64,000 nt of DNA from the IMG/VR virus record IMGVR_UViG_3300028920_000694, positions 1 to 64,000 of that record; one strand, 5' to 3'. The notes below the pieces were generated by a model, which was not told the origin of the DNA, ran no database searches, and saw nothing but the letters and a program-made list of their open reading frames with translations. The translations under genes were made by a program, and so were the position numbers. Below, one piece after another: positions 2,173-44,416 of the stretch. Origin of the DNA: a virus. The number at the start of each line of letters is the position of its first letter. Position 1 is the first letter of the stretch.

Positions 2173-2347
2173 TAATGAGAGCATCTGGGAAAGATACTGG
2201 ATTCGATGCCCTAAATGTAGGAGCAAGGATGTTGAAGGAACAGAATTGTTCAAGGGACATTATCGTGCAGGTAATCCTTTAAAGAAAAGGAATCAACAAA
2301 AGTATGTATGTAAAGAATGTGGGAATGAATGGTGGTTAGAAATATGA
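2156..2347 (+). CDS. Zinc-ribbon protein, unknown
   Basis: This 63-residue protein has two CxxC knuckles, CPKC near residue 18 and CKEC near residue 52, about 30 residues apart. That spacing resembles transcription-factor-like or Ogr-like zinc ribbons. It overlaps the end of the MazG-like gene by 17 nt and is coupled to the ribonucleotide reductase gene by an ATGA overlap at 2344-2347. The target of the ribbon cannot be deduced. Confidence 0.7.
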   Translation: MESDTDNESIWERYWIRCPKCRSKDVEGTELFKGHYRAGNPLKKRNQQKYVCKECGNEWWLEI

Positions 2348-4533
2348 AATTAACTGATTCAGCAATTGATTTAATGAGACAGAGATACTGCAGTCATGGT
2401 GAGAAACCTAATGATGTATTTCCAAGAGTAGCGAAAGCTGTAGCATCTCAAATGAATAGCGATCCAGATGCTAAACAGTTTCTAAAGATAATGGAAGATT
2501 TAGATTTCTTACCTAATTCTCCATGCTTGAGAAATGCTGGATATTCTAATCAAGTGAAAGCTTGTCTAACTAAAGATACAGTAATCCATTGTGCTCATGG
2601 AGATTATACAATAAGAGATTTAATGGATTATGATGGTGAGTTGTATGTATTTAGTAGAGATATTCATAATGGAATAAGATGTGCTAAAGCTACTAAGCCA
2701 ATATTATCAAGAAAGAATGCACAAGTTATGAAGATTGTTTTAGATACTGGACAATCAATAAAGTGTACCAAAGACCATCTTATAATGATGAGAGATGGAA
2801 CATATAAGGAAGCTGGTAAAATACAGTTGGAAGATTCTTTAATGCCATTTACTTATCATAGAGATAAATCTGGTCATAGACAAATACTGAATGATAATTA
2901 TAAATGGATTCCTGGATATAGAATAGTACAAGAAGATATTAATGGAATACCAGAAGTAGATGACAATAAAAAGTATGATATTCATCATATAGATGGAAAT
3001 GGAAATAATGATTACCCAACAAATCTTAAATTCATGGAACACGGAGAACATGCATCTTTACATATGCAAGGAAATAAATTAGGAGCATTTAAACGAAGTG
3101 ATGAAATAAAACAAAGATATTTAAAGGGAATGAAGAAAGCACACAATCATAAAGTAGTAATGACAGAAGATTGTCCAAATGAAGATGTATATGATATAGA
3201 AATAGTTGAAAAGTATCATAACTTTGCAGCAAATGGAATATTTGTACATAATTGTTTCGTACTACCCATAGAAGATTCAATGGAGAGCATATTCAAAACA
3301 CTTCATCAATCAGCTTTGATATTTAAATCAGGTGGAGGAGTTGGATATAATTTTAGTCAGATGAGAGAGAAAGGAGCACCATTATCTCATGGTGGAACAT
3401 CATCAGGAATTATGCCATTCCTAGATTTATATAATTCATTAACAGAAGCAGTTAAACAAGGTGGATTTAGAAGAGGGGCATCTATGGGTGTTCTAGATAT
3501 AGACCATCCAGAGATACTTTCATTCATAAAGGAGAAAGTAACTCCAGGTTCAATGAATAACTTTAATCTATCAGTGATGGTAGATGATGAATTCATGAAA
3601 GGAATAGAAGAAGATGATAAGATTCTGCTTAGGAGTAGATTAGATAGAAGAGTAATCAAAGGCAAATTCAATTGCAGAGACTTGTTCAATATCATAACAT
3701 ATTCTGCTTGGTTGAATGGAGATCCTGGATTGTTATTCTTTGATACAATTAATAAAGATAACATCCTTTATCCTAAGAATGAAATTAATGCCACGAATCC
3801 GTGTGGGGAAGTTCCCTTGCTTCCATATGAGAGTTGTTGTTTAGGTTCAATCAATCTATCTAACTTTGTCACTAAAGATAAATCATTTGATGAGGATAGA
3901 TTTAATGAAATAGTCAGAATAGGAACAAAGTTCCTGATGGGTATGACTAAGATATGTGAATTCCCTATAGATGAATGCTACAAAGCACAGTTTGAATGGC
4001 AAAGACTAGGACTAGGAGTCATGGGATTTGCAGATATGCTAATGAAGATGGAAATTATGTATGATTCAGTTCAGACTTTGAATCTGATAGATAAGATAGG
4101 AAGAATTCTTCAAGAGTCAAAGAAGGTTGCACCCATGTCTGTAGCTACACTATCAATAGCACCTACAGGTAGTCTTTCTATATTAGCTGATTGTTCATCT
4201 GGTATAGAACCATGGTTTGCTAATCAATACACAAGACATTTAACTATAGGCAAAGTATCAGAGAAGAGAGAATCTAAATATCTAAGAACTGCACATCAGA
4301 TTTCACCAGAATGGCATCTGAAAGTGCAAGCTAAATGGCAAGAATATATAGATAATGGAGTATCAAAGACAATTAATCTACCAAGCACAGCAACTATCCA
4401 AGAGATAGCAAATATATATATGAGTGCATGGAAGATGGGATGTAAAGGAATCACAGTCTTTAGAGATGGATGTCTTGGAGATACAGGACAAGTTCTAAGA
4501 AGCACATGTGATGATGAACAATGTTATCTATAG
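2344..4533 (+). CDS. nrdJ: Class II (B12-dependent) ribonucleotide reductase with intein
   Basis: The product is 729 residues, of which about 499 are extein. Residues 1-73 and 304-729 match the adenosylcobalamin-dependent reductase. They contain the catalytic NPCGE loop (Asn485, Cys487, Glu489), SIAPTGSLS, SSGIEPWFA and a C-terminal Cys pair (C722, C727) for re-reduction. The enzyme converts ribonucleotides to deoxyribonucleotides without needing oxygen. I prefer ATG 2344 to ATG 2329, because 2344 is ATGA-coupled and has GGTGG 8 nt upstream. The extein is short and has no ATP cone, so it probably lacks dATP allosteric control. It needs host cobalamin. Confidence 0.92.
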   Translation: MKLTDSAIDLMRQRYCSHGEKPNDVFPRVAKAVASQMNSDPDAKQFLKIMEDLDFLPNSPCLRNAGYSNQVKACLTKDTVIHCAHGDYTIRDLMDYDGELYVFSRDIHNGIRCAKATKPILSRKNAQVMKIVLDTGQSIKCTKDHLIMMRDGTYKEAGKIQLEDSLMPFTYHRDKSGHRQILNDNYKWIPGYRIVQEDINGIPEVDDNKKYDIHHIDGNGNNDYPTNLKFMEHGEHASLHMQGNKLGAFKRSDEIKQRYLKGMKKAHNHKVVMTEDCPNEDVYDIEIVEKYHNFAANGIFVHNCFVLPIEDSMESIFKTLHQSALIFKSGGGVGYNFSQMREKGAPLSHGGTSSGIMPFLDLYNSLTEAVKQGGFRRGASMGVLDIDHPEILSFIKEKVTPGSMNNFNLSVMVDDEFMKGIEEDDKILLRSRLDRRVIKGKFNCRDLFNIITYSAWLNGDPGLLFFDTINKDNILYPKNEINATNPCGEVPLLPYESCCLGSINLSNFVTKDKSFDEDRFNEIVRIGTKFLMGMTKICEFPIDECYKAQFEWQRLGLGVMGFADMLMKMEIMYDSVQTLNLIDKIGRILQESKKVAPMSVATLSIAPTGSLSILADCSSGIEPWFANQYTRHLTIGKVSEKRESKYLRTAHQISPEWHLKVQAKWQEYIDNGVSKTINLPSTATIQEIANIYMSAWKMGCKGITVFRDGCLGDTGQVLRSTCDDEQCYL
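2563..3252 (+). other. Intein with HNH endonuclease domain inside nrdJ
   Basis: A 230-residue in-frame intein occupies residues 74-303. Block A begins with the nucleophile Cys in CLTKDTVIHC, block B has TKDH, and the C-terminus is GIFVHN followed by Cys+1 of the extein (CFVLPIEDS). The central part has an HNH-type motif (DIHHIDGNGNNDYPTNL...H), so this is a compact homing intein with an HNH rather than a LAGLIDADG nuclease. The insertion point is immediately before the conserved active-site cysteine of the reductase, so excision is required for activity. Confidence 0.93.
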
Positions 4534-17041: not shown

Positions 17042-17948
17042 GAAGATATTATTTGGAATATTCGGCAAGCAAGTTAGGATGAGGATGGGTGAATTTGTTG
17101 AGATGGTTCACTCATGCTACATTAAAGGAAAAGATTTAGGATATGCTGATGGAAACATGTTCTTTGAGTGGCCACATAGAATTGCATTCAATAGTGAATA
17201 TAGATATCCAACGTATAAGTTCATGCAATTTCCAGGATATTCTATTCTACCAATAGATTATGTAAAGAGAAACAATGTAAAGAAATCAGACTATGATGAA
17301 GTCTTTAATCTAAATAAGGCAGATATGTTCTATAAGGGCAGTCCAGCAATATACAATATAATTGATGGAAAGTTCACTAGGAATCACACTGGATTCATGA
17401 ACTATCCAAATATACACTACTTCAAGACAGGAGAGAAACCAATCATTAAGATACCTAAGGACAAACTAAAGAAACCATATATTCTTATACACACTAGACT
17501 TGCTAACTGGTCTGAATATAGAAATCCAAAGATAGAATCATATCATAAGATTCTGGATTTACTTGAACCTTATAGAGATACTTATGAGATATGGCAAACT
17601 GGTGAAAAATGTAAATCAGTAGAGAAAAGATGTGATAACACTGTTCCACCACATCCTGAAGATATAAATAAGTTTCTTAGAATTGTAAATAATTCATCTA
17701 TGATAATTGGATGTAATTCAGGACCAAACACTGCTGGTGATATGTTTAACATACCATATGTTGAATTAGATGTTCCAATCAAAAGAAATGGTAGACCTAC
17801 AGAAGCTACACTTGAGGGTTGGAAATTGAAGAGTGACATTGGAAACAGTTATAGAGATTATAGGATTAGGGGTGAAGATTTGCTTCAACTATGGCAAAAT
17901 GAACTTGATGAAGAAAAGTTCTTGAACTTCTGTAGGAGGAATTTATGA
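17031..17948 (+). CDS. Heptosyltransferase/GT9-like glycosyltransferase
   Basis: This 305-residue protein has a C-terminal half resembling GT-B heptosyltransferase-like enzymes. It contains KKPYILIHTRLANWSEYR, an EIWQTGE strand, and NSSMIIGCNSGPNTAGDMFNIPYVEL, where the Ser/Asn-Gly-Pro loop would bind donor phosphates. The N-terminal domain is divergent. A heptose kinase-like gene is directly downstream, consistent with use of a heptose donor. Confidence 0.6.
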   Translation: MEDKKILFGIFGKQVRMRMGEFVEMVHSCYIKGKDLGYADGNMFFEWPHRIAFNSEYRYPTYKFMQFPGYSILPIDYVKRNNVKKSDYDEVFNLNKADMFYKGSPAIYNIIDGKFTRNHTGFMNYPNIHYFKTGEKPIIKIPKDKLKKPYILIHTRLANWSEYRNPKIESYHKILDLLEPYRDTYEIWQTGEKCKSVEKRCDNTVPPHPEDINKFLRIVNNSSMIIGCNSGPNTAGDMFNIPYVELDVPIKRNGRPTEATLEGWKLKSDIGNSYRDYRIRGEDLLQLWQNELDEEKFLNFCRRNL

Positions 17949-18844
17949 AAGAAATAAGAGATAAATATAAATTAGATGAGATTCTGGAATGGTTAGATAA
18001 AATAAAAGACTTAAAGATGCTTGCTCTTGGTGAAACTATTATAGATATGTATCAGTTTGGAATTGCTCTAGGAAAGTCAAGTAAGGCTCCAATAGTTGCA
18101 TTTCAATGTACAACCAGTGAAACATATCGAGGTGGAATAATTGCTATAAATGAACACTTAGAGAGTTTCATAAATGATATAGATTGCTGGACTCCAGATG
18201 TGTGTGTAGTGAAAAAGAGATATATACAGAATGGACAGAAATTATTTGAAGTGTATAATAATGCTGAGAATCCATATTATTATGATGATAACGAATCACT
18301 TGATGTGAAAGAGTATGATATAATTCTAATAGCAGACTTTGGACATGGAATGTTCAATAGAAAAATAAGAGATGAGATATGTGAATTCTCTAATTTCATT
18401 TCTTTGAATTGTCAGATGAATGCTGGAAATATGGGATTGAACACAATAAACAAATATGAATCAGCAGACTATATATGTATATCTGAACATGAACTTAGAC
18501 TTGCATTCAGTGAACAATATGCTGAGTTATCAGATATTCTGCTAGAGAATATAGAAGATGGAATCACAGTTGCAATTACTCAAGGAAAGAATGGATGCAC
18601 TATATACAAAGATAGAAACTTCTATTACACTCCTGCATTTGAAGAACATCCAGTAGATTCAACTGGAGCAGGAGATGCATTTCTAGCAATTACAACTCCA
18701 CTAGTATATGTAGGAGCACCATTAGATATAGTAGGATTCATAGGAAGTTGTGCGGGTAGTTTGGCATGCTCTTGGCAAGGAAATAAGAAATCAGTCACTA
18801 AGAAAGAATTAATTGAATATATAAGGAAGATTTATGAAAGATGA
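17945..18844 (+). CDS. PfkB-family sugar kinase (HldE/RfaE N-terminal-like)
   Basis: This 299-residue ribokinase-fold protein has the signature VDSTGAGDAF at 237-246, with Asp244 as catalytic base. An N-terminal GETIIDMYQFG recalls the heptose-7-phosphate kinase domain of HldE. The usual cytidylyl/adenylyltransferase domain of HldE is absent. It probably phosphorylates a heptose or another sugar phosphate. It overlaps both neighbours. Confidence 0.78.
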   Translation: MKEIRDKYKLDEILEWLDKIKDLKMLALGETIIDMYQFGIALGKSSKAPIVAFQCTTSETYRGGIIAINEHLESFINDIDCWTPDVCVVKKRYIQNGQKLFEVYNNAENPYYYDDNESLDVKEYDIILIADFGHGMFNRKIRDEICEFSNFISLNCQMNAGNMGLNTINKYESADYICISEHELRLAFSEQYAELSDILLENIEDGITVAITQGKNGCTIYKDRNFYYTPAFEEHPVDSTGAGDAFLAITTPLVYVGAPLDIVGFIGSCAGSLACSWQGNKKSVTKKELIEYIRKIYER

Positions 18845-19880
18845 ATTCTTAATAGATAGACATAAGCTAAACTATCATCCAGAAGAAGTATCCTGCTGGT
18901 TAAAGAAAGAACCATTCTATCCTATCTATGTAGAGATAAGTCCAACCAATAGATGCAATCACAGGTGCATCTTCTGTGGATTTGGATACACTGAACATAA
19001 GAATCAAGACTTAGATACTGAATATTTATCTATTGCCATTCAATCTATGGCTGAGTGTGGAATTAAGGCAATCATGTTCTGTGGAGAAGGTGAACCTCTT
19101 CTTCATCCAGACATAGCAGATTTAATCAAGCTAGCTAAAGAATTAGGAATAGATGTATCACTAACTACTAATGGAGTTCTAATGAATGAAGAGTTCCTAA
19201 AGAATGCTCTACCTTATCTAGACTGGATAAAGGTTAGTGTTGATGGAGGAACACCTGAAACATATTCTAAAGTTCATGGATGCAAGAAGTCTGACTTCAA
19301 TACTCTGATGAAGAATCTAGAAACTGCAGTAGAGATTAGAGATAAGAATAACTATTCATGCACTATAGGAACACAATCAATTCTATTAGATGAGAACACT
19401 CTAGAGATATATGATTTAGCTAGAACATTAAAGAAGACAGGTGTAGATTACTTTGTCATTAAACCATATACACCACATCCATACAATAAAGATAATCTAG
19501 ATATAAATGAACTACAAGATGTTTGGAATTGGTTCGGAGACCAACGTGTGTTGGATTTAAAAGATGATAAATTTGATGTGATTGTTAGATACACTGCATT
19601 TGAGAATCAAGACTTAGAAAGAGAGTATCATGATTGTTATGCTAGTGATTTCTGGTGTTATATAGGATCTGATGGTGCAATATACATCTGTAATAACTAT
19701 CTAGGCAATTCAGACTATATCTATGGAAATATATATCAGAAGACATTCAAAGAAATATGGGACACCAGACCACATATAGATATTGATTTAAATAACTGTA
19801 GAAAGATATGTAGAATGAATGAGGTGAATAAGTACCTATGGAGAATGAAGAATCCACCAGCTCACAAGAACTTTATTTAA
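18834..19880 (+). CDS. Radical SAM/SPASM-like protein, paralogue 1
   Basis: This 348-residue protein has the radical SAM cluster motif C41-x3-C45-x2-C48. FCGEGEPLLHP matches the GGEP motif and TTNG matches a following strand. The C-terminal half has extra cysteines (CYASDFWC, YICNNY, CRKICR) suggesting an auxiliary SPASM/twitch cluster. It shares the N-terminal KLxYHxxxVxxWL and the C-terminal H-x-N-F ending with genes at 21080 and 22132. The reaction is unknown. Confidence 0.82.
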   Translation: MKDEFLIDRHKLNYHPEEVSCWLKKEPFYPIYVEISPTNRCNHRCIFCGFGYTEHKNQDLDTEYLSIAIQSMAECGIKAIMFCGEGEPLLHPDIADLIKLAKELGIDVSLTTNGVLMNEEFLKNALPYLDWIKVSVDGGTPETYSKVHGCKKSDFNTLMKNLETAVEIRDKNNYSCTIGTQSILLDENTLEIYDLARTLKKTGVDYFVIKPYTPHPYNKDNLDINELQDVWNWFGDQRVLDLKDDKFDVIVRYTAFENQDLEREYHDCYASDFWCYIGSDGAIYICNNYLGNSDYIYGNIYQKTFKEIWDTRPHIDIDLNNCRKICRMNEVNKYLWRMKNPPAHKNFI

Positions 19881-20596
19881 AGGCTAAACAAATCAGAAGA
19901 GATGCATTTGAATTAGGAGTAGAGTATAAGATAGGACACATAGCATCCTCTCTATCTACAGTAGAGATTCTAGTTGCTCTCTATTATGATATAATGAATG
20001 AAGATGATATATTCATTCTATCTAAGGGACATGGATGCCTTGCTTGGTATGCAGTCCTTAGAGATAAAGGATTGAATCCAAAAATCTCTGGACATCCTGA
20101 TATAGACATAGAGAATGGAATCCCATGCACCACTGGAAGTCTAGGTCATGGACTGCCTGTTGGAGTAGGAATGGCTCTAGCAAAGAAACTTAAGAGTGAA
20201 TCTGGTAGAGTATTTGTTCTCTGTGGTGATGGAGAATTCCAAGAAGGAAGTATGTGGGAATCCTTACTCATAGCATCTCATCATCAATTAGATAATCTAT
20301 TTATTTTTATAGATAGAAACAGATTACAATCATTAGATGAAACAGAAGAAATACTATCAGTGGAAGATTTATATACAAAGCTATGTGCATTCAATTGTCC
20401 AGTAAATGAAATAGATGGACATGATATAAAGAATATAAAATATATGATAGATACATATGAATTATCCAATCCAAGATGTGTGATTGCAAATACAGTTAAA
20501 GGTAAAGGAATCTCATATATGGAAGGAATCTCTAAATGGCATCATAGACTACCAAATGAAGAAGAATTAAGAATAGCCAGAGAGGAATTGAAATGA
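19838..20596 (+). CDS. Transketolase, N-terminal (PP) subunit
   Basis: This 252-residue protein corresponds to the thiamine-diphosphate-binding half of transketolase. It has GHIASSLS, KGHG, TTGSLGHGLPVGVGMA, and the TPP motif GDGE (130-133) ending at Asn161. The partner Pyr domain is the next gene. The pair would produce sedoheptulose-7-phosphate or a related ketose phosphate, a logical precursor for the heptose enzymes in this locus. It overlaps the upstream radical SAM gene by 43 nt. Confidence 0.88.
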   Translation: MENEESTSSQELYLKAKQIRRDAFELGVEYKIGHIASSLSTVEILVALYYDIMNEDDIFILSKGHGCLAWYAVLRDKGLNPKISGHPDIDIENGIPCTTGSLGHGLPVGVGMALAKKLKSESGRVFVLCGDGEFQEGSMWESLLIASHHQLDNLFIFIDRNRLQSLDETEEILSVEDLYTKLCAFNCPVNEIDGHDIKNIKYMIDTYELSNPRCVIANTVKGKGISYMEGISKWHHRLPNEEELRIAREELK

Positions 20597-21072
20597 GAAG
20601 AGCATTCAGTGAATGGATAACGAATAAAGCATCTGAAGATGAGAAAATATATCTTCTGGTGAATGATATAGGATATGGATACTTTGATGAATTCAAGAAG
20701 AAGTTCCCAGATAGGTTCCTGAATCTAGGAATCACAGAGCAGGCAACTATGAGTATAGCAGCAGGTATGGCACTCTCTGGATTGAAACCATATGTGTATT
20801 CAATAACTCCATTTGTGACAGAGAGATGTCTGGAGCAAATAAAGGTAGATGTAGATTGTAATGAAGCTAATGTAGTGATTGTTGGATATGATGACTATCC
20901 AAATCAGGGACCAACTCATGCATCTTGTGGAGAAGGAGAGTTTATGTGTATGTTTCCAAACATAAATAGTTACTGGCCAATAAATGGAATGGAAGTATTT
21001 GAATGTTTAGATTATATATACGAATGTAATAGAGCAGGATTCTTAAGATTAAGGAGGGATAAAGATAGATAA
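20593..21072 (+). CDS. Transketolase, C-terminal (Pyr) subunit, short
   Basis: This 159-residue protein matches the pyrimidine-binding domain of transketolase. The catalytic Glu49 lies in LNLGITEQATMSIAAGMALSG, and GPTHASCGEGE follows. The third, C-terminal domain of normal transketolase or of archaeal split C-subunits (about 310 residues) is absent, so this is a minimal Pyr domain. It is ATGA-coupled to the N-subunit, and the two should assemble into one active site. Confidence 0.85.
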   Translation: MRRAFSEWITNKASEDEKIYLLVNDIGYGYFDEFKKKFPDRFLNLGITEQATMSIAAGMALSGLKPYVYSITPFVTERCLEQIKVDVDCNEANVVIVGYDDYPNQGPTHASCGEGEFMCMFPNINSYWPINGMEVFECLDYIYECNRAGFLRLRRDKDR

Positions 21073-21079
21073 ATTTGGA

Positions 21080-22135
21080 ATGACTAGCTGTAAGTTAATC
21101 TATCATTTAGATAGACTACAGAAGTGGCTAGATGGAGAACACTTTCCACCGATACATATAGATTTAGGAATAACCACTGGATGCAATGCTAAGTGTAAGT
21201 TCTGCTATGGACAGTTTATAGGTCAGACTCCATTGAAGAATGCATATCACATGGATAAGTCGATAGCATTTAAATTATTCAATGAATCAAAAGTTGCAGG
21301 AATCAAATCAATCACTCTAATAGGTGAGGGTGAGAACACCATTCATCCAGACTTCTATGACATCATCAACTTTGGAAAGAGTATAGGAATGGATTTAGCT
21401 ATTGCAACTAATGGAATCTTCATCAAGAAGGAGAAAATGAAAGAATTCCTAGAAGCATTCACTTGGGTGAGGATTAGTCTCTGTGCATCTAATAAAGACT
21501 TGTATAAGAAGATTCATGGAGTGAATCAATTCAATGCAGTCTGGGAGAACATCAAAGAGTTAGTTAAGATAAAGAAGAAGTATAAATTAGATACCACAAT
21601 AGGAGTGCAGATGGTAGTCATCAAGGACAACATCTCTGACATAGAGAATATGGCTAGATTCTGTAAGTATCTGGGAGTAGATTATCTAGTGATTAAACCA
21701 TGTGCTGATACACCAGATAAGAAGTTCAAGATTCCATTCAGTAGATTAAAGAAACTGAATGCAGAGTTCAAGAAAGCTGAAGCACATTCAACAGATATGT
21801 ATGATGTAATCATCAAGAGAAATAAATTCAAAGCAGGAAACAAACATCCATTCAAGGTATGTTATGCTACACCATTTGCAATCTCTATGGATGCTCATGG
21901 AAATGTAGCTCCTTGTGGTCATCTGCTTGGATATAAGAGTAAGGAGTTTAATATGGGAAATATTCATAATCAATCAATGACAGAAATAATCAATTCAGAG
22001 AAATACTGGAACATTCACAAAAAAGTGGAATCTCTGGATTTAGATAAGGAATGTGAGACTAACTGTATGCAATGGAACATGTGTGTGTTTTTGGATGGTA
22101 TTAAGAAGAGGCCATCTCATCTGAACTTTCCATGA
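21080..22135 (+). CDS. Radical SAM protein, paralogue 2
   Basis: This 351-residue protein has C35-x3-C39-x2-C42 (TGCNAKCKFC), LIGEGENTIHP in place of GGEP, and ATNG. C-terminal cysteines (CYATP, APCGH, CETNCMQWNMC) suggest an auxiliary cluster. It begins KLIYHLDRLQKWLDGE and ends RPSHLNFP, like its paralogues at 18834 and 22132. A carbohydrate C-C, epimerisation or dehydrogenation reaction is conceivable in this context. Confidence 0.82.
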   Translation: MTSCKLIYHLDRLQKWLDGEHFPPIHIDLGITTGCNAKCKFCYGQFIGQTPLKNAYHMDKSIAFKLFNESKVAGIKSITLIGEGENTIHPDFYDIINFGKSIGMDLAIATNGIFIKKEKMKEFLEAFTWVRISLCASNKDLYKKIHGVNQFNAVWENIKELVKIKKKYKLDTTIGVQMVVIKDNISDIENMARFCKYLGVDYLVIKPCADTPDKKFKIPFSRLKKLNAEFKKAEAHSTDMYDVIIKRNKFKAGNKHPFKVCYATPFAISMDAHGNVAPCGHLLGYKSKEFNMGNIHNQSMTEIINSEKYWNIHKKVESLDLDKECETNCMQWNMCVFLDGIKKRPSHLNFP

Positions 22136-23247
22136 GTAAACTAATTCTAGATGGAACCAAGCTACCTTATCATATGGATAGGGTGAAGGCTTGGTTAGAT
22201 GGTGAGAGAGTTGCTCCAATCACTGTAGAGTGGGCACTCTCTAGAAAATGTACATATAGATGTAAGTATGATAACTATTGCTATACAGAGAAAGAGAGAA
22301 CACAGAATGATGTAATCACCAGAAGAGTTGCATATAGATTTCTAGAAGACTGTGCCGAAGTAGGAGTCAAAGGAGTTCCTTTAGGATGTGATGGGGAGAG
22401 TACTTGCAATCCAATCATCTATGATGTGATTCCTTATTCAGTAGAATGTGGTTTAGATACTGCTATGTCAACTAATGGATATCTTCTAGATGATGAGAAA
22501 CTACATAAGATACTTCCATATATGAAATATATACGATACAATGTATCTGCAGCAGAACCAGAACCTTATGGATATGTTCATGGATGTCATCCTAAATGTT
22601 TCAATAAGGTATACAATACAGTCAAGAGATCGGTAGAGTTAAAAGAGGAACTAGGATTAGATATAACTATAGGACTACAGATGGTTCTACTTCCACAGTT
22701 TGGAAGTCAGATAATTCCAATGGCTAAACTAGGAGAAGAATTAGGTGTAGATTACACAGTCATAAAGCATTGTTCTGATGATAGAATTAAAGGCATAGGA
22801 ATAGATTTCAATAAATATCATGAATTGACCCCATTACTTAAACAAGCAGAAGCAATGACTACAGATAAACATCGAGTAGTTATTAAGTGGTCAAAGTTAA
22901 TGTCTGGTGGAGAGAAAGAATATAAGTATTGCTATGGACCAATCTTTCTCCAGCAGGTATCCTCATCTGGAATCATTGGACCATGTGGAACATTCTTCAA
23001 TGAGAAGGATAAATGGTTCAATGTAGGCAACATAGTGAATCAGAGATATAAAGATATAGTGAAGAGTGACCATTACTGGGATGTGATGAATCGTCTAGCA
23101 TCAGATGATTTTGATAATAAGAAGTGTTGGTCTATGTGTTTCCAGCATAAGGTAAATCAATTCCTCTGGAAGTTGAAACAGGGAGAGATTAAGTTGGAAG
23201 ATGTGATACCGAAAGAAGAAACTACAGGACATGTGAATTTTATATGA
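22132..23247 (+). CDS. Radical SAM-like protein, paralogue 3, altered cluster motif
   Basis: This 371-residue paralogue of the genes at 18834 and 21080 has the same N-terminal KLxYHxDRVxxWLDGE and the C-terminal GHVNFI. Its cluster motif is C40-x3-C44-x5-C50 instead of C-x3-C-x2-C, with two residues more between the last cysteines. LGCDGESTCNP replaces the GGEP motif, and C-terminal cysteines are present. It may bind a 4Fe-4S cluster in a variant way or have lost the radical reaction. It is ATGA-coupled to paralogue 2. Confidence 0.75.
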   Translation: MSKLILDGTKLPYHMDRVKAWLDGERVAPITVEWALSRKCTYRCKYDNYCYTEKERTQNDVITRRVAYRFLEDCAEVGVKGVPLGCDGESTCNPIIYDVIPYSVECGLDTAMSTNGYLLDDEKLHKILPYMKYIRYNVSAAEPEPYGYVHGCHPKCFNKVYNTVKRSVELKEELGLDITIGLQMVLLPQFGSQIIPMAKLGEELGVDYTVIKHCSDDRIKGIGIDFNKYHELTPLLKQAEAMTTDKHRVVIKWSKLMSGGEKEYKYCYGPIFLQQVSSSGIIGPCGTFFNEKDKWFNVGNIVNQRYKDIVKSDHYWDVMNRLASDDFDNKKCWSMCFQHKVNQFLWKLKQGEIKLEDVIPKEETTGHVNFI

Positions 23248-24083
23248 AGATATTAGTGTTTGGCTCCACTGGAGCATTAGGAACTGCACTTGAAGAAGTG
23301 TGTGATGAGAGAGATGTAGAATATATAGGAATGTCTCATTCAGATGTAGACATCATCCATTCTAGAGCAGTTGAAGAAATCATAGATAAAGTCTCACCAG
23401 ATGCAATTATAAATACAGTTGCAATCATAGCTCCAAGAAATTGTCTACAGAGTATCAGATATTCAACTGAAGTGAACTCTCTGTTTCCTAATTTTCTAGC
23501 ATCACTATGTAATGCACTGGATATCACTCTAGTTCAGCCTAGCACACATTCTGTATTTGATGGATGCAAATATCTACCATATACAGAAAATGATATTCCT
23601 AATCCAATTAATATCTATGGAGCACAGAAACTGATTGCAGAATCTGCAGTTAGACATAATTGTAAGAAACATTATATCACAAGATTCCCAACTATGTTTG
23701 GACCTAGAAGAAATAAATCTCTAGGATTTGTAGATAAAATGATTCAGAGGATTCGGAATGGAGAAGATTTGATGGTTGCAGTAGATAAGATAGATTCACT
23801 TAGTTATACTATGGATGTAGCAGATAGATTGATTGATTTACTTGAGAATGAATATCCATATGGAATATATCATGTAGCTAACTCTGGAGTGACTAGTTAT
23901 TATGAATTTGTAGATGAACTAAGGAGACTCATGAATTCTGATGTGGTGGTTAAGAGAGCATTAGATTCAGACTTTCCATCACCAGAACCTAATCCAATCT
24001 ATACTGCACTTGAATCAACTAAGCTAGATTCAATTAGAGGATGGGAAGATGCACTTGAAGAATATGTAGTGGAGTATTTATGA
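23244..24083 (+). CDS. RmlD-like dTDP-4-dehydrorhamnose reductase family SDR
   Basis: This 279-residue SDR has GSTGALG (7-13), Tyr125-x3-Lys129 and a STHSVFDG strand. The Arg-Phe-Pro-Thr-Met-Phe-Gly region is typical of RmlD-type reductases. Such enzymes reduce the 4-keto group of activated deoxysugars with NAD(P)H. It overlaps both neighbours by 4 nt. Confidence 0.8.
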   Translation: MKILVFGSTGALGTALEEVCDERDVEYIGMSHSDVDIIHSRAVEEIIDKVSPDAIINTVAIIAPRNCLQSIRYSTEVNSLFPNFLASLCNALDITLVQPSTHSVFDGCKYLPYTENDIPNPINIYGAQKLIAESAVRHNCKKHYITRFPTMFGPRRNKSLGFVDKMIQRIRNGEDLMVAVDKIDSLSYTMDVADRLIDLLENEYPYGIYHVANSGVTSYYEFVDELRRLMNSDVVVKRALDSDFPSPEPNPIYTALESTKLDSIRGWEDALEEYVVEYL

Positions 24084-24829
24084 AGACAAGAATTAGAGAA
24101 AGGTGTGCTATCTGTGGAGAGAAGTTAGAGGAACCTCTAATCAAGTTGCCTAACTATCCACTTACAGAGAGATACTCAAAGAAGAAATCTAAAGGAATAT
24201 ATGTAGACCAAGGATTCTGCTATTGTAATAACTGTGGACATGGACAACTGAAGACTATCATAGATAAAGACATTCTCTATGGAAACTATGATTATAGAAC
24301 AACTACATCTACTGGTGGAGGTAGAGAAGGCATCAAGCATCTATTGCAATTTATGGATGAGAACATCAAAAAGAATTTCAATAAGATAGTAGAGATAGGG
24401 TGCAATGATGGATTTCTCTTGAGAACTCTACAGAATAGAGCAGACATCCTTATAGGAATAGATCCAACTATCAAAACAAGAAGAGAAGATGATATATTCT
24501 TCATAGGAGATTACTGGGAGAATACAGATGTAGATTTATCTGGTGCATTGGTATTATGTAATCATGTTCTGGAACATCTAGAAGAACCAAGATTCCTGAT
24601 TCAGAGTCTTCTATCTAGAGCAGATAAGAAAACTATATTCGTATTCAGTTTTCCTATTCTAGACTTCCTAGTAGAGGATATGAGATTTGACCAGATATTC
24701 CATCACCATCTACATTACTTCTCAATTGACTCAATGCTTTATCTACTTAATGAACTAGGATGCAATTTCTATTATGAATGTAATCCCAATTTCTGGGGTA
24801 GTATGTATATAATCTTCTGGAAAGCATGA
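24080..24829 (+). CDS. Sugar C-methyltransferase, zinc-finger and SAM domains (split gene, N-part)
   Basis: This 249-residue protein starts with a zinc finger (C9-x2-C12, C49-x2-C52). The SAM-binding core follows: KIVEIGCNDGFLL at about 103-114, then LVLCNHVLEHLEEP, then a histidine-rich DQIFHHHLHYFS active-site segment. This is the order of the TylC3/NovU-type NDP-hexose C-methyltransferases (Methyltransf_13 and core). The C-terminal third (Methyltransf_14) is encoded by the next ORF. Confidence 0.82.
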   Translation: MKTRIRERCAICGEKLEEPLIKLPNYPLTERYSKKKSKGIYVDQGFCYCNNCGHGQLKTIIDKDILYGNYDYRTTTSTGGGREGIKHLLQFMDENIKKNFNKIVEIGCNDGFLLRTLQNRADILIGIDPTIKTRREDDIFFIGDYWENTDVDLSGALVLCNHVLEHLEEPRFLIQSLLSRADKKTIFVFSFPILDFLVEDMRFDQIFHHHLHYFSIDSMLYLLNELGCNFYYECNPNFWGSMYIIFWKA

Positions 24830-25194
24830 TGAAAGAAAAAGAAATACTTGAACAATATATGAAGTTTCTGAAGCAGATGGAAAATATGCAACATTATTTA
24901 GAAGAACACAAAAATCAACCAGTGTATGCATATGGGGCTAGTTATCAACTACCGATACTGAATTACTATGTTCCTAGAATAGGAGCACAAGTGAAGTATG
25001 TTCTAGATGATGATGAGAATAAAAAAGGACTAAGATATCTTGGAATGAAACAAGAGATAATCCCTCCAGATGATGAACTTCCTTGGGATGCTAGTTATAT
25101 CTTAATCACTGCAATCAACTTCTCTAGACAAATACTTCAGAATGTAATTAAGAAACATCCAAAGAGAATATATCTACCATTGAATGGCATATGA
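24826..25194 (+). CDS. Sugar C-methyltransferase C-terminal domain (split gene, C-part)
   Basis: This 122-residue protein matches the C-terminal Methyltransf_14 domain that normally follows the catalytic core in sugar C-methyltransferases. It has VYAYGASYQLPILNYY, KYVLDDDENKKG, and the late SYILITAIN strand. It starts with ATGATG overlapping the stop of the upstream part by 4 nt in a different frame. A natural split into two chains is more likely than a sequencing frameshift because the overlap is neatly coupled. Confidence 0.78.
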   Translation: MMKEKEILEQYMKFLKQMENMQHYLEEHKNQPVYAYGASYQLPILNYYVPRIGAQVKYVLDDDENKKGLRYLGMKQEIIPPDDELPWDASYILITAINFSRQILQNVIKKHPKRIYLPLNGI

Positions 25195-28269: not shown

Positions 28270-29103
28270 ATGTTTGATTTCTATTTTGGAACAGATGAAG
28301 AGATAGAAGCAGATGAAGAGAAGTATTTACTCTCAATTAAGAGGATGCTTCCTAAATGGTGCAATAGCATACCAGATTCTGAATACATAGCATTATTTAG
28401 ATTGTGTGAAGAAAGAGCTAGAGAATGTGCACCTCCAATAATTGTAGAGACAGGTGTTGGTGCAAGTACCATAGTTCTAGCATTCTGTGCTATGAAGCAT
28501 TTTGGAATTCTCTACTCATGGGACATCTCTGGAGAAAAGGGAAGTTATCTTAAGAGTGTGATGGTAGATACTATCTGCAAGTATTTTAAATTAGACATCA
28601 ATGAATTCTGGAAGTTCATTGCATATAATTCTGGTGATTCACATTTAGGAATTCCAGTTATTAAAGAACTAGAGATACAGATAGACTTCTCATTCCATGA
28701 CAGTAAACACACTCTACTTAACTTGATGAATGAGATTGATTTATGTTATGATTTATATGCTGATGGAGCAATCATAGCTATAGATGATGGAAGCTACACT
28801 AATTTCTATGAGAATTTCTCATACATAAATATCTTGAGGAAGAAACTAGGACTTGATCCAGTAGAGAATCCTGATGATAATATATGTGCACCATTTCATA
28901 TGGAAATAGAAGAATCTCTAAAACTTGACTGGGAATCTGTGGAACATATAGATGATGATTATAAGAAGATGTATAAGGAAGATATGTGGTTTAAATACTT
29001 TGCAAATGAATTTGATGAGAAAGTGAAATTTGGAATGGAAGTTCCAGATACACTTGAACATAGATTCGATGCATGGAGGGTAAATGGCAGAATCCAATTC
29101 TAA
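28270..29103 (+). CDS. SAM methyltransferase-like protein (Methyltransf_24 type)
   Basis: This 277-residue protein has PIIVETGVGASTIVLAFC as the SAM-binding strand and loop, LYSWDIS as the second strand, IDFSFHDSKHT, and GAIIAIDDGSYTN. This is the arrangement of O-methyltransferases related to cephalosporin hydroxylase and Methyltransf_24. A long acidic C-terminal extension follows. It is likely a glycan methyltransferase. Confidence 0.65.
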   Translation: MFDFYFGTDEEIEADEEKYLLSIKRMLPKWCNSIPDSEYIALFRLCEERARECAPPIIVETGVGASTIVLAFCAMKHFGILYSWDISGEKGSYLKSVMVDTICKYFKLDINEFWKFIAYNSGDSHLGIPVIKELEIQIDFSFHDSKHTLLNLMNEIDLCYDLYADGAIIAIDDGSYTNFYENFSYINILRKKLGLDPVENPDDNICAPFHMEIEESLKLDWESVEHIDDDYKKMYKEDMWFKYFANEFDEKVKFGMEVPDTLEHRFDAWRVNGRIQF

Positions 29104-30100
29104 TTATCATAGATTCACAAAAGCAAATGTGTTTCATCACAGGAGACATAATAAAGAATTTCAAGAATATCGTAGAAGATGGCAAGTATATCCTTTAGAT
29201 CATATAGTTGGAGAATTTCCTATACATCTTGATATAGAATCTACATATAGATGCAATCTTAAATGTCCATTCTGTGCTAGGACATATACCGACTGGGGAC
29301 AGGAACCAGTAATTAAGGATATGGATTTCAATCTATATAAGAAAATTATTGATGAAGGTGTAGAGAATGGTCTATATGCAATCAAACTAAGTTTAAGAGG
29401 TGAACCATTGCTTCACAAGAGGATAGTTGATATGGTTGCTTATGCTAAAGAAAGAGGAATTATAGATGTGTACTTCAATACTAATGGTTCTTTATTAACT
29501 GAAAAATTAATCTATCAGATGATTGGTGCTGGACTAGATAGAATATCAGTATCGATTGATGGAATAGATAAACAATATTTTGAGAATGTAAGATATCCAC
29601 TTAAATATGATGATATAGTAAATAGAATAAAGAATATGCAACAGATAAAAAGAAGTGAAGGAGTAGATTATCCACAGGTGAGAGTTCAGACTGTTATTAA
29701 TGATGAGACAATGAAGGATATGGATGAGTATACAGAATTCTGGAGTGAAATCGCAGATGAAGTTGCTGGAATAGATATGAGAAGAGAGAGCCCTGAATAT
29801 TCATATAAAGAAGTGGATGCTGATTGGTGTTGTCCTTTCTTGTGGCAGAGAATGACTATTCTATGTGATGGAACTATACTACCATGTCTCTTACATGGAA
29901 TTGATGATTCAAATAGATATTCATTAGGAAATGCAAAAGATGTAGATATAAAAGATGCTTGGAACAATAGATTGATTAGGATGATGAGAGCAGTCAATAA
30001 GGCTGAATTAGGTCATCTAATATATCCATGTAGTGATTGTTCATATAGATCATCAGAATTGGAGAAGTTAGGATATGATAGTTGGTATATTGATAGGTAG
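29084..30100 (+). CDS. Radical SAM/SPASM protein
   Basis: This 338-residue protein has C57-x3-C61-x2-C64, SLRGEPLLH, and FNTNG, then C-terminal cysteines (WCCPFLW, CDGTILPCLLHG, CSDCSYR) for a SPASM or twitch domain. It is not a close paralogue of the three at 18834-23247 because its termini differ. It overlaps the upstream methyltransferase by 20 nt and the downstream cytidylyltransferase by 26 nt. The substrate is unknown. Confidence 0.82.
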   Translation: MAESNSNYHRFTKANVFHHRRHNKEFQEYRRRWQVYPLDHIVGEFPIHLDIESTYRCNLKCPFCARTYTDWGQEPVIKDMDFNLYKKIIDEGVENGLYAIKLSLRGEPLLHKRIVDMVAYAKERGIIDVYFNTNGSLLTEKLIYQMIGAGLDRISVSIDGIDKQYFENVRYPLKYDDIVNRIKNMQQIKRSEGVDYPQVRVQTVINDETMKDMDEYTEFWSEIADEVAGIDMRRESPEYSYKEVDADWCCPFLWQRMTILCDGTILPCLLHGIDDSNRYSLGNAKDVDIKDAWNNRLIRMMRAVNKAELGHLIYPCSDCSYRSSELEKLGYDSWYIDR

Positions 30101-30803: not shown

Positions 30804-31683
30804 TACTTATCCAAATAAAGTAGTTCTAGTAGATGGGTGTGGAGGTGCTGGAAAGATTCTAGTATCATCTATATTAGAGTGTCTAGAAGGAGCAGAAGCT
30901 GGTGTAGAAGATGAGAATTCTTTTCTGATATCTAGACTATGGAGAGCAAATAAACTAACTGAAGATGCAGCTATAGCCTATCTGAGACTAAATATAGACA
31001 GGAGAATCCACTATCTAATGATGGGTAGATGTTTGAACATCAAGAAAGGTGAATCTATATCAGTCAGAAAATATCCTAATCCACTGAAGTATCTTAAGAG
31101 ACATTTCAACAATGAGAAATATCTAGCTGAAGAAGAGGTATTTGAGAGAATGCCTATATTCCATACAATGACTCAGAATGCACTTACAGATATAGACTTG
31201 TATCTAAAAGCATTTGGTAGTAGATTAAGTGTGATATATATTCATAGAAGTTCAATTGATGTGATATATGACATGTATAAGAGAAAGTTCTTAGATGATA
31301 TAGGTATCATACCTAGTAATATTAGATTCACTATCAAGGATGAGGATGGATATATGGTTCCTCTGTTTGCAGCAGACTGGTCAGATGAATATATTGATAT
31401 GTCTGACATGGAAAAAGTATCTAGATGGATTCTTGAATCATATCAAGAAGATATGGATGCATTTGGGGATTTGCCTAAAGAACAACAGAAACAGATTATG
31501 TTCATAGACTTTGATGAACTAGTAACTAATCCATATCCTATATGTGAACAGATATCAGAATTCTTGGGTGTGAAATTCACACATCATCTAAATAGAGTTC
31601 TTAAGAGAGAGAACTGTCCAAGGAAGATAGATTATAAAGAAAGAAATCGAAGAAGGGAGTTCATAAATAATCATGCTAATTAA
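30784..31683 (+). CDS. Sulfotransferase-like protein 2
   Basis: This 299-residue protein has a degenerate P-loop (DGCGGAGKILVSSI, about residues 18-31) and IYIHRSSIDVIYDM as 3'-phosphate-binding segment. FIDFDELVTNPYPICEQISEFLGVKF is near the C-terminus, as in PAPS-dependent sulfotransferases. It is only distantly similar to the enzyme at 11262. The substrate is probably a glycan. It overlaps its upstream neighbour by 20 nt and its downstream neighbour by 11 nt. Confidence 0.7.
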   Translation: MEFIRDNTYPNKVVLVDGCGGAGKILVSSILECLEGAEAGVEDENSFLISRLWRANKLTEDAAIAYLRLNIDRRIHYLMMGRCLNIKKGESISVRKYPNPLKYLKRHFNNEKYLAEEEVFERMPIFHTMTQNALTDIDLYLKAFGSRLSVIYIHRSSIDVIYDMYKRKFLDDIGIIPSNIRFTIKDEDGYMVPLFAADWSDEYIDMSDMEKVSRWILESYQEDMDAFGDLPKEQQKQIMFIDFDELVTNPYPICEQISEFLGVKFTHHLNRVLKRENCPRKIDYKERNRRREFINNHAN

Positions 31684-32596
31684 GAATCCCAAATCAAAAA
31701 GAGTGAATCCATTCAGAGATATATATGATAGTAAAGAATATAGAAATGCATCTAATCTAATCACTGACTTTCCATTCATTATAGATTTAGAATTAACTAA
31801 TGCATGTAATCTCAATTGTAGAATGTGTAGTAGGCAATTAATGGAAAGGGATGTTGGATACATGTCTAGAGAGATGTTTCAGAAAGTTCTAAATGAATGT
31901 TCAACACATTCAACTCCTATAAGAATGTCTAGATGGGGTGAACCATTTCTGCATCCACATATAATAGAATTCTGTAAACAAATAAAAGAAAAAGAACTCA
32001 TCCTACATATAACAAACAATGGGAATGTGATTTCAGAATCACATATGAAAGGATTGATAGAATGTGGATTAGATTCAATTATATTTTCAATGCAGGGTGC
32101 AACAGCTGAAGAATATGAGTATATGAGAAGAAGAGGAAGTTATAGTAAACTATATAATAATATAATGAAACTACTTGAATTAAGAGGAGATGAAGATAAG
32201 CCATTCATTAGAGTTTCTTCTACAATATCAGAGAGAGATTCAGATGAGAGTGTTCAAAAATTCATAGATTACTGGAAGAATATAGTAGATGCAGTTGGTA
32301 TTGGAAGGACAAATATGGTAAGAATTGATGGAAAGAAACCTAAATGGGCTAAATATAGTCCCTGCACAGAAGTATATCAGAAGTTGAGTGTTGATTATGA
32401 TGGTAAAGTATCTGCATGTTGTGGAGATTATGATAATCTTCTAACTATTGGAGATTTATCTGAACCATATTCTAGTCTATCCAAAATATGGGATGTTAAT
32501 TCTAAATTAACCTGGATAAGAAACACACTTAAAGAGATGAATCACAAGCAATTCACATTATGTAAAGATTGTTTTCATACCTATGAGGAATTTTAA
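31673..32596 (+). CDS. Radical SAM/SPASM protein
   Basis: This 307-residue protein has C45-x3-C49-x2-C52 (NACNLNCRMC), SRWGEPFLHP, and HITNNGN. C-terminal cysteines (YSPCTE, ACCGDY, CKDCF) fit a SPASM-type extension. It lies between the second sulfotransferase and the short NeuA-like gene, in the nonulosonate part of the locus. Confidence 0.82.
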   Translation: MLIKNPKSKRVNPFRDIYDSKEYRNASNLITDFPFIIDLELTNACNLNCRMCSRQLMERDVGYMSREMFQKVLNECSTHSTPIRMSRWGEPFLHPHIIEFCKQIKEKELILHITNNGNVISESHMKGLIECGLDSIIFSMQGATAEEYEYMRRRGSYSKLYNNIMKLLELRGDEDKPFIRVSSTISERDSDESVQKFIDYWKNIVDAVGIGRTNMVRIDGKKPKWAKYSPCTEVYQKLSVDYDGKVSACCGDYDNLLTIGDLSEPYSSLSKIWDVNSKLTWIRNTLKEMNHKQFTLCKDCFHTYEEF

Positions 32597-40870: not shown

Positions 40871-41739
40871 TGAAACATATACTAGTAACTGGTGGATTAG
40901 GATTCATAGGAAAGCATCTAGTGAAAAGACTAGAGAAAGAAGGACATAATATTCATATCATAGACATCAAGGGTGGTTCTAATCTATTAGATATAGATGA
41001 GATAACCAATAAACATTATGATATCATCTATCATCTTGCAGCTAATGCAGATGTCAGAGGTGGAATAGATAACACAACGATAGATTTGGAGAATAATATC
41101 AGAGCTACACATAGACTTCTAGAATATATGAGGATGCATAATTGTAAGAATCTAGTATTTACATCATCAGCTACAATCTATGGAGAAAGAGATGATTTCC
41201 CAATACCAGAAGATGCACCTGACTTGAGACCTATCTCACTCTATGGAGCAAGTAAACTATCTGCAGAACATCTGATAGAGGCATATTCACATATGTTTGG
41301 AATCAATGCAAATATCTTCAGATTTGGGAACATTGTTGGTGAAGGAAACACTCATGGAGTAATTAATGACTTTGTGAGGAAACTACAGAAGAATCCAAAG
41401 AAACTAGAGATTCTAGGAAATGGAAATCAGATTAAGCAGTATCTTCATGTGAATGATTGTATTAATGCATTGATGAATATATCTATAGAAGAAGGAGTTA
41501 ATATATATAATCTAGCACATGATGATACCATGCCAGTAAGTAGACTAGCATCTATAGTTATAGATGAGATGGAATTAGATGCAGAAATAGAATATACTGG
41601 TGGAGATAGAGGATGGATAGGAGATGTTCCAGTTACTATCATAGATAATTCTAAGATGAAGGAATGTGGTTGGAAACCAACTGTAAGTGTAGAAGATGGA
41701 ATAAGAAGAACTGTGAGGTGGCTAATTGATAATCAGTAG
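40870..41739 (+). CDS. Extended SDR, UDP-glucose 4-epimerase-like
   Basis: This 289-residue protein (GTG start) has GGLGFIG (8-14), HLAANADVRGG, and SSATIYGE, with Tyr125-x3-Lys129 and FRFGNIVGEG. These are typical of NDP-sugar 4-epimerases. It overlaps the heptose kinase gene by 14 nt, which suggests that both act on related substrates. Confidence 0.85.
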   Translation: MKHILVTGGLGFIGKHLVKRLEKEGHNIHIIDIKGGSNLLDIDEITNKHYDIIYHLAANADVRGGIDNTTIDLENNIRATHRLLEYMRMHNCKNLVFTSSATIYGERDDFPIPEDAPDLRPISLYGASKLSAEHLIEAYSHMFGINANIFRFGNIVGEGNTHGVINDFVRKLQKNPKKLEILGNGNQIKQYLHVNDCINALMNISIEEGVNIYNLAHDDTMPVSRLASIVIDEMELDAEIEYTGGDRGWIGDVPVTIIDNSKMKECGWKPTVSVEDGIRRTVRWLIDNQ

Positions 41740-42685
41740 AACTCCATATAGAATATCATTTGCAGGTGGTCTATCTGACCTAGAAGCATATTATAAGTAT
41801 CAGGATGGACATGTAGTATCTACTACTATAGATAAATATCTCTACCTATTCGTGACTAAGAATCTAATAGGCAAGTATAGAGCAGTTTATAGAAATGTAG
41901 AAGAAGTGGATGAGATAGATGACATTAAGCATCCATTAGTAAGAGAATGTCTTAAGATGGCTAAGATAGATGAACCAGTAGAGATAATGTGTCTATCTGA
42001 TGCACCTGGAGGAACAGGTTTAGGTTCTTCATCTGCATTCACTGTAGGACTTCTTAATGCTTTATATAGATATAATGGAATCCAATGTAACAAAGCCAAA
42101 CTAGCAGAGGATGCATGTAAGATAGAAATAGATATACTAGGTGAGCCTATAGGAAAGCAGGATCAATATAACTGTGCTTTTGGTGGACTGAATCATTATG
42201 TATTTACTAAGAAGAGAATCAGAATCCATCCTATACTAGCAGATATAGAGACAATTAATAGATTACAAGACAATCTAATGTTATTCTATACAAACATTCA
42301 GAGAAAAGCATCTGATATTCTAAATAATCAGAAGAAGAATATGCATGATATAGTTCCAATAGTCAAAGATATGACTTGGATGGCTAGCTGTATATCTAGT
42401 GACTTACATCATAATACACTAGATAACATAGGTGCATATATAGGTGAAGAGTGGAATCTAAAGAAGAAGACTGGAAATGTATCTAATGAGATGATAGATG
42501 AGATAATAGATAGAACATATGATGCAGGAGCTACAGGAGCAAAGTTATGTGGAGCAGGTTCAGGTGGATTTCTGATGGTATATTGTGAACCAGCATATCA
42601 AGATGCAGTTAGAAAAAGACTATCTGATCTGACAGAGTTTCCATTTAGATTTGATGAACATGGGAGTAGGATAATACATGCCTGA
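41726..42685 (+). CDS. hddA: GHMP kinase, D-glycero-D-manno-heptose 7-phosphate kinase-like
   Basis: This 319-residue GHMP kinase begins ISRTPYRISFAGGLSDLEAYY, typical of HddA. The ATP loop GTGLGSSSA is at 96-104 and motif 3 is KLCGAGSGGF near the end. HddA phosphorylates D-glycero-D-manno-heptose 7-phosphate at C1, on the way to GDP-heptose. The start is TTG 41726 with GAGGTGG about 5 nt upstream. A GmhA-like isomerase lies 1.2 kb downstream and a transketolase pair 20 kb upstream. Confidence 0.85.
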   Translation: MIISRTPYRISFAGGLSDLEAYYKYQDGHVVSTTIDKYLYLFVTKNLIGKYRAVYRNVEEVDEIDDIKHPLVRECLKMAKIDEPVEIMCLSDAPGGTGLGSSSAFTVGLLNALYRYNGIQCNKAKLAEDACKIEIDILGEPIGKQDQYNCAFGGLNHYVFTKKRIRIHPILADIETINRLQDNLMLFYTNIQRKASDILNNQKKNMHDIVPIVKDMTWMASCISSDLHHNTLDNIGAYIGEEWNLKKKTGNVSNEMIDEIIDRTYDAGATGAKLCGAGSGGFLMVYCEPAYQDAVRKRLSDLTEFPFRFDEHGSRIIHA

Positions 42686-43875: not shown

Positions 43876-43891
43876 AAATTAGGGTTTTTTG

Positions 43892-44416
43892 ATGAAAATG
43901 AACATAAATAAGTATTTAGATGAATTTAAGAGTGTGTTTGAAGATATAAAGAAGCAGTATAACAAGTTAGATGAGATAGTAGATATTATAAAGCAATCAG
44001 AGAAGATATACATAGCAGGTAATGGAGCATCTGCATTGATATCATCACATCTAGCCCTGCATCTGAGACAGTTAGGATATGATGCAATATCTCTAACAGA
44101 TAATGTAGGACTAGTGACTGCAGAAGCTAATGATGATGAATATAAAAATATATTTATGAACCAACTATATTCTACATCAGATAGAGGAGACATTCTAATC
44201 ATCTTCTCTGGTTCTGGTAATTCAGAGAATGTAGTGACTGGTGCAAAGTATATGATAGATATAGGAGAGAAGGTAATTGCATTTGTAGGAACAGATGGTG
44301 GAGAATTAAGTATGATGGAAGATGTAGAGTGTTTTCATGTGAATGGGGATATGCAGCACGCTGAAGATGCATTCTCAATTATATGTCACTTGCTTTTGAG
44401 GTGTTTAGATGAGTAA
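43892..44416 (+). CDS. GmhA-like sedoheptulose-7-phosphate isomerase (SIS domain)
   Basis: This SIS-domain protein of about 174 residues has YIAGNGASALISSHLALHLRQLG (sugar-phosphate loop) and LTDNVGLVTAEANDDEY, as in phosphoheptose isomerase. ILIIFSGSGNSENVVTGAKY and a C-terminal QHAEDAFSIICHLL follow. GmhA converts sedoheptulose 7-phosphate to D-glycero-manno-heptose 7-phosphate. The start may be ATG 43892 or ATG 43898. With hddA, the PfkB kinase and the transketolase it forms a heptose route. Confidence 0.8.
   Translation: MKMNINKYLDEFKSVFEDIKKQYNKLDEIVDIIKQSEKIYIAGNGASALISSHLALHLRQLGYDAISLTDNVGLVTAEANDDEYKNIFMNQLYSTSDRGDILIIFSGSGNSENVVTGAKYMIDIGEKVIAFVGTDGGELSMMEDVECFHVNGDMQHAEDAFSIICHLLLRCLDE

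Follow-up and report, generated by a model that had tools for sequence, protein, structure and literature searches.

Three deeply separated radical SAM/SPASM proteins beside a split transketolase-type enzyme in a viral glycan island, with a proposed role in sugar modification

The analysed DNA (IMG/VR virus record IMGVR_UViG_3300028920_000694, positions 1 to 64,000; this whole stretch of 64,000 nucleotides is called the window) encodes three radical S-adenosylmethionine (SAM) proteins, A (18834-19880), B (21080-22135) and C (22132-23247), all on the plus strand. The locus raises the question of how these three proteins are related to each other and on what they act. A first-pass annotation had described three paralogues interleaved with a transketolase pair, and this arrangement was found in the open reading frames (ORFs), with a split transketolase-type enzyme, TktN (19838-20596, plus strand) and TktC (20593-21072, plus strand), lying between A and B. 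Overall, A, B and C are proposed to represent a radical SAM/SPASM family, so far uncharacterised, that acts on sugars. It would work with a specialised two-subunit thiamine diphosphate (ThDP) enzyme and short-chain dehydrogenases/reductases (SDRs), and the substrate would be an activated sugar for a surface glycan, probably of heptose or hexose type; this reading is given a probability of about 0.5. Within it, action of the family on a carbohydrate is very likely, and a functional coupling to the ThDP enzyme is almost as well favoured.

Three subfamilies with common ends

Pfam Radical_SAM matched A, B and C, while the Pfam SPASM model scored above its cut-off in A and B and 20.5 against a cut-off of 21.5 in C. 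Identity to B was 31% for A and 34% for C. The CX3CX2C radical SAM cluster motif was present in A (Cys41/45/48) and B (Cys35/39/42), and C carried an altered CX3CX5C motif (Cys40/44/50). The matching ends that had been pointed out in the three genes were real: the N-terminal segment was HKLNYHPEEVSCWLKKE in A, CKLIYHLDRLQKWLDGE in B and TKLPYHMDRVKAWLDGE in C, and the H-x-N-F C-terminal end was HKNFI, HLNFP and HVNFI, respectively. The same ends, K-[LIM]-x-[YWF]-H...W at the N-terminus and H-[IV]-N-F-I at the C-terminus, were found in nearly all inspected cellular and viral relatives. Because of this, and because A, B and C fell into separate subfamilies, the shared ends are read from the sequences as signatures of the family and not as docking tags specific to this locus.

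A genome scan with the A/B/C alignment found at least 234 loci encoding relatives in bacteria and archaea. The viral collection produced 47 matched loci, 29 of which (L089-L117) belonged to the A/B/C family, and the phages collection gave five weak relatives. Viral scans with the single B or C sequence returned no relatives, and the altered C motif was not traceable in close kin. In the tree, the three proteins went to three subfamilies that separate deeply and that all include bacterial as well as viral proteins: A sat among A-type proteins from both sources, the neighbours of B came from Roseospirillum, Omnitrophica and virus L089, and C belonged to a third clade drawn from many phyla. The tree was of a quick kind, so its fine placements are less certain than the coarse three-subfamily result. 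Forcing A, B and C together was rejected in the approximately unbiased (AU) test at a cost of 265 log-likelihood units (p 1.1e-46). The local duplication by which the three genes had been thought to arise is thereby rejected, and A, B and C do not stem from recent copying within this locus.

The three cysteines of the radical SAM cluster and the four C-terminal cluster cysteines are kept by family members, the latter in at least 98% of them, including A. In B/C-type members, the residue at the C-terminal end of beta-6 was nearly always a cysteine (105 of 113; Cys208 in B, Cys214 in C). At this position the A-type members had tyrosine (39 of 52, Tyr212 in A itself) or phenylalanine (7 of 52). 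The cysteine is a candidate hydrogen donor, and the difference at beta-6 would suit a family with two kinds of reaction, such as an oxidation or dehydration in A and an epimerisation in B and C.

A, B and C all scored below the cut-off of every NCBIfam equivalog model, and six further family members, of which five were cellular and one was viral, gave no NCBIfam match at E ≤1e-28; this agrees with the earlier remark that the family matched no recognised radical SAM group. In PHROGs, generic radical SAM families were matched, with none for C. Literature searches on radical SAM, transketolase and glycan found no paper describing the A/B/C family. In two viral records (L111 and L112, 7849-9882), a family member was split by an intein-like stretch that lies directly ahead of its third cluster cysteine (...CIY / CVTGDTPI...LCVHN / CYG...).

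Gene pairing with a two-subunit ThDP enzyme

TktN matched Pfam Transketolase_N with 90.5 bits and is the ThDP-binding half of the enzyme. TktC, the pyrimidine-domain half, matched only Transket_pyr, without Transketolase_C. Of 80 cellular family loci, 60 had a two-subunit ThDP gene pair of transketolase or E1 type nearby, and of 29 viral loci, 20 did, counts that include many contigs that stop short. The control set, 18 viral loci from the same scan whose radical SAM proteins are unrelated to the family, contained one such pair (Fisher p 1.6e-5, an optimistic value as several rows in both sets are near-duplicates). Loci without the transketolase pair often carried an E1 alpha/beta pair (Pfam E1_dh, Transket_pyr and Transketolase_C), and the E1 type accounted for more than half of the family loci having a ThDP pair. 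This radical SAM-ThDP pairing is the strongest functional signal in the analysis. In the 735-kb phage LR756501 (L157, 8409-10642), a distant A-like radical SAM gene also had E1-type ThDP gene pieces to its left and right.

The pairing extends to gene order. Nine consecutive genes were found at 17945-25194 of the window, namely a PfkB-type kinase, A, TktN, TktC, B, C, an RmlD-like SDR, a methyltransferase and a small ORF, with neighbouring genes overlapping by 4 nucleotides or nearly so and a largest gap of 7 nucleotides. The 155-kb virus L089 had the same order (kinase-A-TktN-TktC-B-RmlD-methyltransferase), its third radical SAM copy being S-type and not C-type. It is related to the window virus by its terminase (51-53% identity) and RadA-like protein (50%), and its B copy is 50% identical to B. 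Cellular loci showed the orders A-TktN-TktC-C (five loci) and A-TktN-TktC-RmlD-S (three loci), and TktN-TktC-RmlD preceded one or two family members in another two. An RmlD-like SDR adjoined family members in 12 loci, ORFs resembling the kinase were present in many, and HldE-like, GmhA-like, GmhB-like and SDR genes also lay next to the family. Sugar genes were its neighbours alike in bacteria, archaea and viruses, and the cassette is old and shared across bacteria, some archaea and viruses. The suggestion of new sugar or lipid chemistry was supported in its sugar half, through gene context and fold, and nothing was found for lipids.

A total of 32 radical-SAM-linked TktC proteins were aligned with the split transketolase 6yaj. 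The ThDP-activating glutamate and the catalytic histidine of G-x-[ST]-H were kept in all 32. The histidine of the ATHAG segment was present in none and was replaced by glycine (29), aspartate (2) or alanine (1), and the serine of the DLSKS segment was nearly always glycine. TktC of the window retains both catalytic residues and lacks this histidine and this serine. Housekeeping split TktC paralogues of the same genomes kept the histidine (5/5). The lost residues match His461 and Ser385 of E. coli TktA, which in established transketolase structures hold the acceptor phosphate. A further two loci (L147 and L149) encoded TktC subunits lacking the phosphate-site histidine, in retrieved sequence that contained no radical SAM gene of the family, and other specialised transketolases may exist.

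Proposed pathway and rival explanations

In the proposed pathway, the kinase and nucleotidyltransferase genes would activate the sugar. Through the 5'-deoxyadenosyl radical, subfamily A would then oxidise or dehydrate this sugar, much as DesII and BtrN treat their own substrates, and so give a keto sugar. The split transketolase would add a two-carbon (C2) hydroxyacetyl unit to the ketone, and at other loci the E1-type partner would add an acetyl unit from pyruvate. The RmlD-like SDR would reduce the product of C2 transfer, and subfamilies B and C would invert a carbon, with Cys208 or Cys214 giving back the hydrogen atom. A C2-branched or C2-extended activated sugar is favoured as the product because both types of ThDP partner are known or proposed to modify nucleotide keto sugars with C2 units. 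C2 branching or extension of a keto sugar is nevertheless put forward tentatively, at slightly worse than even odds, and a role of B and C as epimerases is possible, with the odds leaning somewhat further against it.

Several points weigh against this reading. Every substrate, every product and the order of reactions are our inference, and no member of the family has an established substrate. The hydrogen-donor role of the beta-6 cysteine was assigned from its position, and the phosphate-site residues were identified by reference to established transketolase structures. The GmhA-like and HldE-like neighbours are equally compatible with a plain supply of heptose. Two arginines of the phosphate site were mostly kept in the linked TktC proteins, and DXS enzymes likewise lack the histidine, yet use a sugar phosphate. 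For these two reasons, the TktC sequences show that the acceptor site is changed without specifying the acceptor, and loss of the histidine is no proof that the acceptor is non-phosphorylated.

The main rival is a supply and tailoring of heptose without any C2 branching: the split transketolase would provide sedoheptulose 7-phosphate to GmhA/HldE-like enzymes, and the completed nucleoside diphosphate (NDP)-heptose would be epimerised or deoxygenated by the radical SAM enzymes. HldE-like and GmhA-like genes occurred together in 27 of 80 cellular loci, with complete sets including a GmhB-like phosphatase in four, and the window's own glycan island holds a GHMP kinase nearest to HddA (heptose 7-phosphate kinase; 41726-42685, plus strand) and a SIS protein nearest to GmhA (sedoheptulose 7-phosphate isomerase; 43889-44416, plus strand). 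However, the heptose-type neighbours were all under their equivalog cut-offs (NCBIfam 134 bits against 600 and 76.7 bits against 209 for the two island genes), the E1-type enzymes that predominate among the ThDP pairs would not make sedoheptulose 7-phosphate, and the loss of the phosphate-site histidine and serine from the linked TktC, with the histidine kept in housekeeping paralogues, also weighs against it. This explanation is regarded as unlikely.

Maturation of a peptide or a metalloenzyme, as in most named SPASM families, is a much less probable role. The best NCBIfam model for A, B and C was the maturase of a tungsten-cofactor oxidoreductase, TIGR04317, but the scores (104.2, 114.7 and 51.8 bits) were far under its cut-off of 380 and no tungsten oxidoreductase was seen in the window. 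The peptide enzymes SuiB and SkfB came after DesII in the fold search of A and C, and B-type profiles had peptide enzymes first (CteB-like 5wgg and SkfB). The three proteins did not fall within a radical SAM subfamily with a known peptide substrate, a placement that the first-pass annotation had named as the refutation of its own reading. In addition, the packing of the genes left no room between them at 17945-25194 for a precursor gene of a ribosomally synthesised and post-translationally modified peptide (genes overlapping on the opposite strand were not examined as precursors), and the neighbours are sugar genes throughout. The transketolase could instead clear 5-deoxyribose derived from 5'-deoxyadenosine as 7-deoxysedoheptulose, with no biosynthetic role, and a transketolase route of that kind operates in Synechococcus elongatus (PMC8102628). 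That route uses promiscuous housekeeping enzymes, whereas the partner here is a divergent dedicated paralogue that E1 enzymes replace in many loci and that no nucleosidase or phosphorylase accompanies, which makes salvage the least probable of the explanations and extremely unlikely.

A further rival explanation concerns C itself and its altered motif. The motif CTYRCKYDNYC (22259-22285) resulted from a 9-nucleotide in-frame insertion, as read in the DNA, and all 31 aligned C-type relatives (45-54% identity) had CX3CX2C. Among 165 rows surveyed, one was cut off and two were interrupted by inteins, and C was the sole true exception in the 162 readable members. We know of no characterised radical SAM enzyme with CX3CX5C spacing, and C may be either inactive or an enzyme of an unusual kind. 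If the three-residue insertion destroyed the SAM cluster, C would be a decaying pseudo-enzyme, and the work would fall to A and B, alone or together with an S-type copy like the one in L089. This would fit its lone motif, its branch length of 0.67 (the longest in its subfamily), the low confidence of its AlphaFold model at residues 41-60 and the lack of a C-type copy in the related L089. Its reading frame is open, however, and the protein is otherwise well conserved, keeping the superfamily fold and Pfam match, all seven cluster cysteines, the candidate donor Cys214 and the other invariant residues of the C subfamily. Decay is therefore considered possible, at clearly less than even odds.

A wider proposal, in which an ancient radical SAM and ThDP module of bacteria, archaea and viruses makes C2-branched or C2-extended surface sugars, with radical enzymes in place of classical 4,6-dehydratases and epimerases preparing and finishing the keto sugar and with C working on a CX3CX5C cluster, is rather unlikely as a whole. 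If the proposed role in sugar modification is right, two large enzyme superfamilies would be joined in one sugar pathway across many phyla, including cultured, testable carriers (Butyrivibrio, Roseospirillum parvum, Paludibacterium purpuratum), and carriage of the module by tailed viruses would be explained as remodelling of a surface or virion glycan. The module would also be a source of split ThDP enzymes that possibly accept ketones, a class for which a review reported no structure and no in vitro transketolase work (PMC12247030). Radical SAM enzymes acting on sugars and C2-branching ThDP enzymes are already known kinds.

Setting in the virus and comparison with known systems

The virus record is 115,333 bases long, and the window covers its first 64 kb. 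The remainder of the record encodes an HK97-type capsid, a terminase, a RadA/Rad51-like recombinase, an ERCC4-domain nuclease and a primase-polymerase-like protein, on the basis of which the virus is tailed and its host is probably an archaeon. The glycan island (9792-45444, about 36 kb) contained genes for sugar, sulfate, carbamoyl and methyl transfer, including sulfotransferases, one carbamoyltransferase and a NeuB-like gene besides the GmhA-like and HddA-like genes. Two extra SPASM radical SAM genes of other families, without A/B/C-type ends, were located downstream in the island (29084-30100 and 31673-32596) and adjoined genes resembling cytidine monophosphate (CMP)-sugar synthetases. Outside the island, a ribonucleotide-reductase-like ORF with an intein-like insert (CLTKDTVI...GIFVHN before a cysteine) was read by eye at 2329-4533.

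The remaining genes of the nine-gene operon are also on the plus strand. The PfkB-type sugar kinase (17945-18844) is distantly HldE-like (RfaE domain I), with 55.6 bits to Pfam PfkB and 56.2 bits to NCBIfam rfaE_dom_I (cut-off 345), and its cellular counterpart is a fusion of a nucleotidyltransferase and a kinase matching RfaE domains II and I. The RmlD-like SDR (23244-24083), a candidate ketoreductase, scored 176.7 bits with NCBIfam rmlD (cut-off 224). The methyltransferase (24080-24829; Pfam Methyltransf_23, 42.9 bits) was found in L089 as well, and is overlapped by 4 nucleotides by the small ORF (24826-25194), which had no Pfam match and, judged by eye, might supply the C-terminal portion of a sugar methyltransferase that is split in two.

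Among known enzymes, the best PDB fold match of the AlphaFold models of A and C (predicted local distance difference test scores of 89.7 and 87.5) was DesII, the radical SAM/SPASM deaminase of thymidine diphosphate (TDP)-4-amino-4,6-dideoxyglucose (PDB 8hzv, 8hzy). The top six matches of both models were DesII chains, with template modelling scores on the query of up to 0.73 for A and 0.67 for C, and DesII also led the sequence-profile matches of A, among which MoaA, BlsE and BtrN were the best others. However, the likeness is at superfamily level (15-18% identity), a further point against the sugar reading; the DesII model TIGR04426 gave 54.2 bits for A and 18.2 bits for C against a cut-off of 450, and DesII has approximately 460-480 residues compared to 348-371 in A, B and C. 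BtrN and BlsE act on carbohydrate-like substrates (an aminocyclitol and a sugar acid), but their likeness to A is limited to the core domain, with no equivalog match.

The split transketolase of Carboxydothermus hydrogenoformans (6yaj/6yak) has the same two-chain architecture as the window pair (E 3.9e-45 for TktN, with 6yak its best PDB match, and 1.1e-10 for TktC), and differs in having the phosphate-site histidine and serine and the Transketolase_C domain. In the biosynthesis of avilamycin, aldgamycin and kibdelomycin, nucleotide keto sugars receive two-carbon units from E1-type ThDP enzymes, and split-gene transketolases have been proposed for C2-branching in miharamycin and amipurimycin, where the role is still unproven (PMC12247030; PMC4753412). 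The 13 split-gene transketolases in the review were all from Streptomycetes (PMC12247030). As in the window, the alphaKADH2 enzymes (AviB1/B2, KbDH) and the miharamycin and amipurimycin transketolases are two-subunit ThDP enzymes beside sugar-nucleotide genes. Compared by architecture and neighbourhood, the two partner types of the present family match the two types in the review (PMC12247030), although those systems belong to antibiotic clusters.

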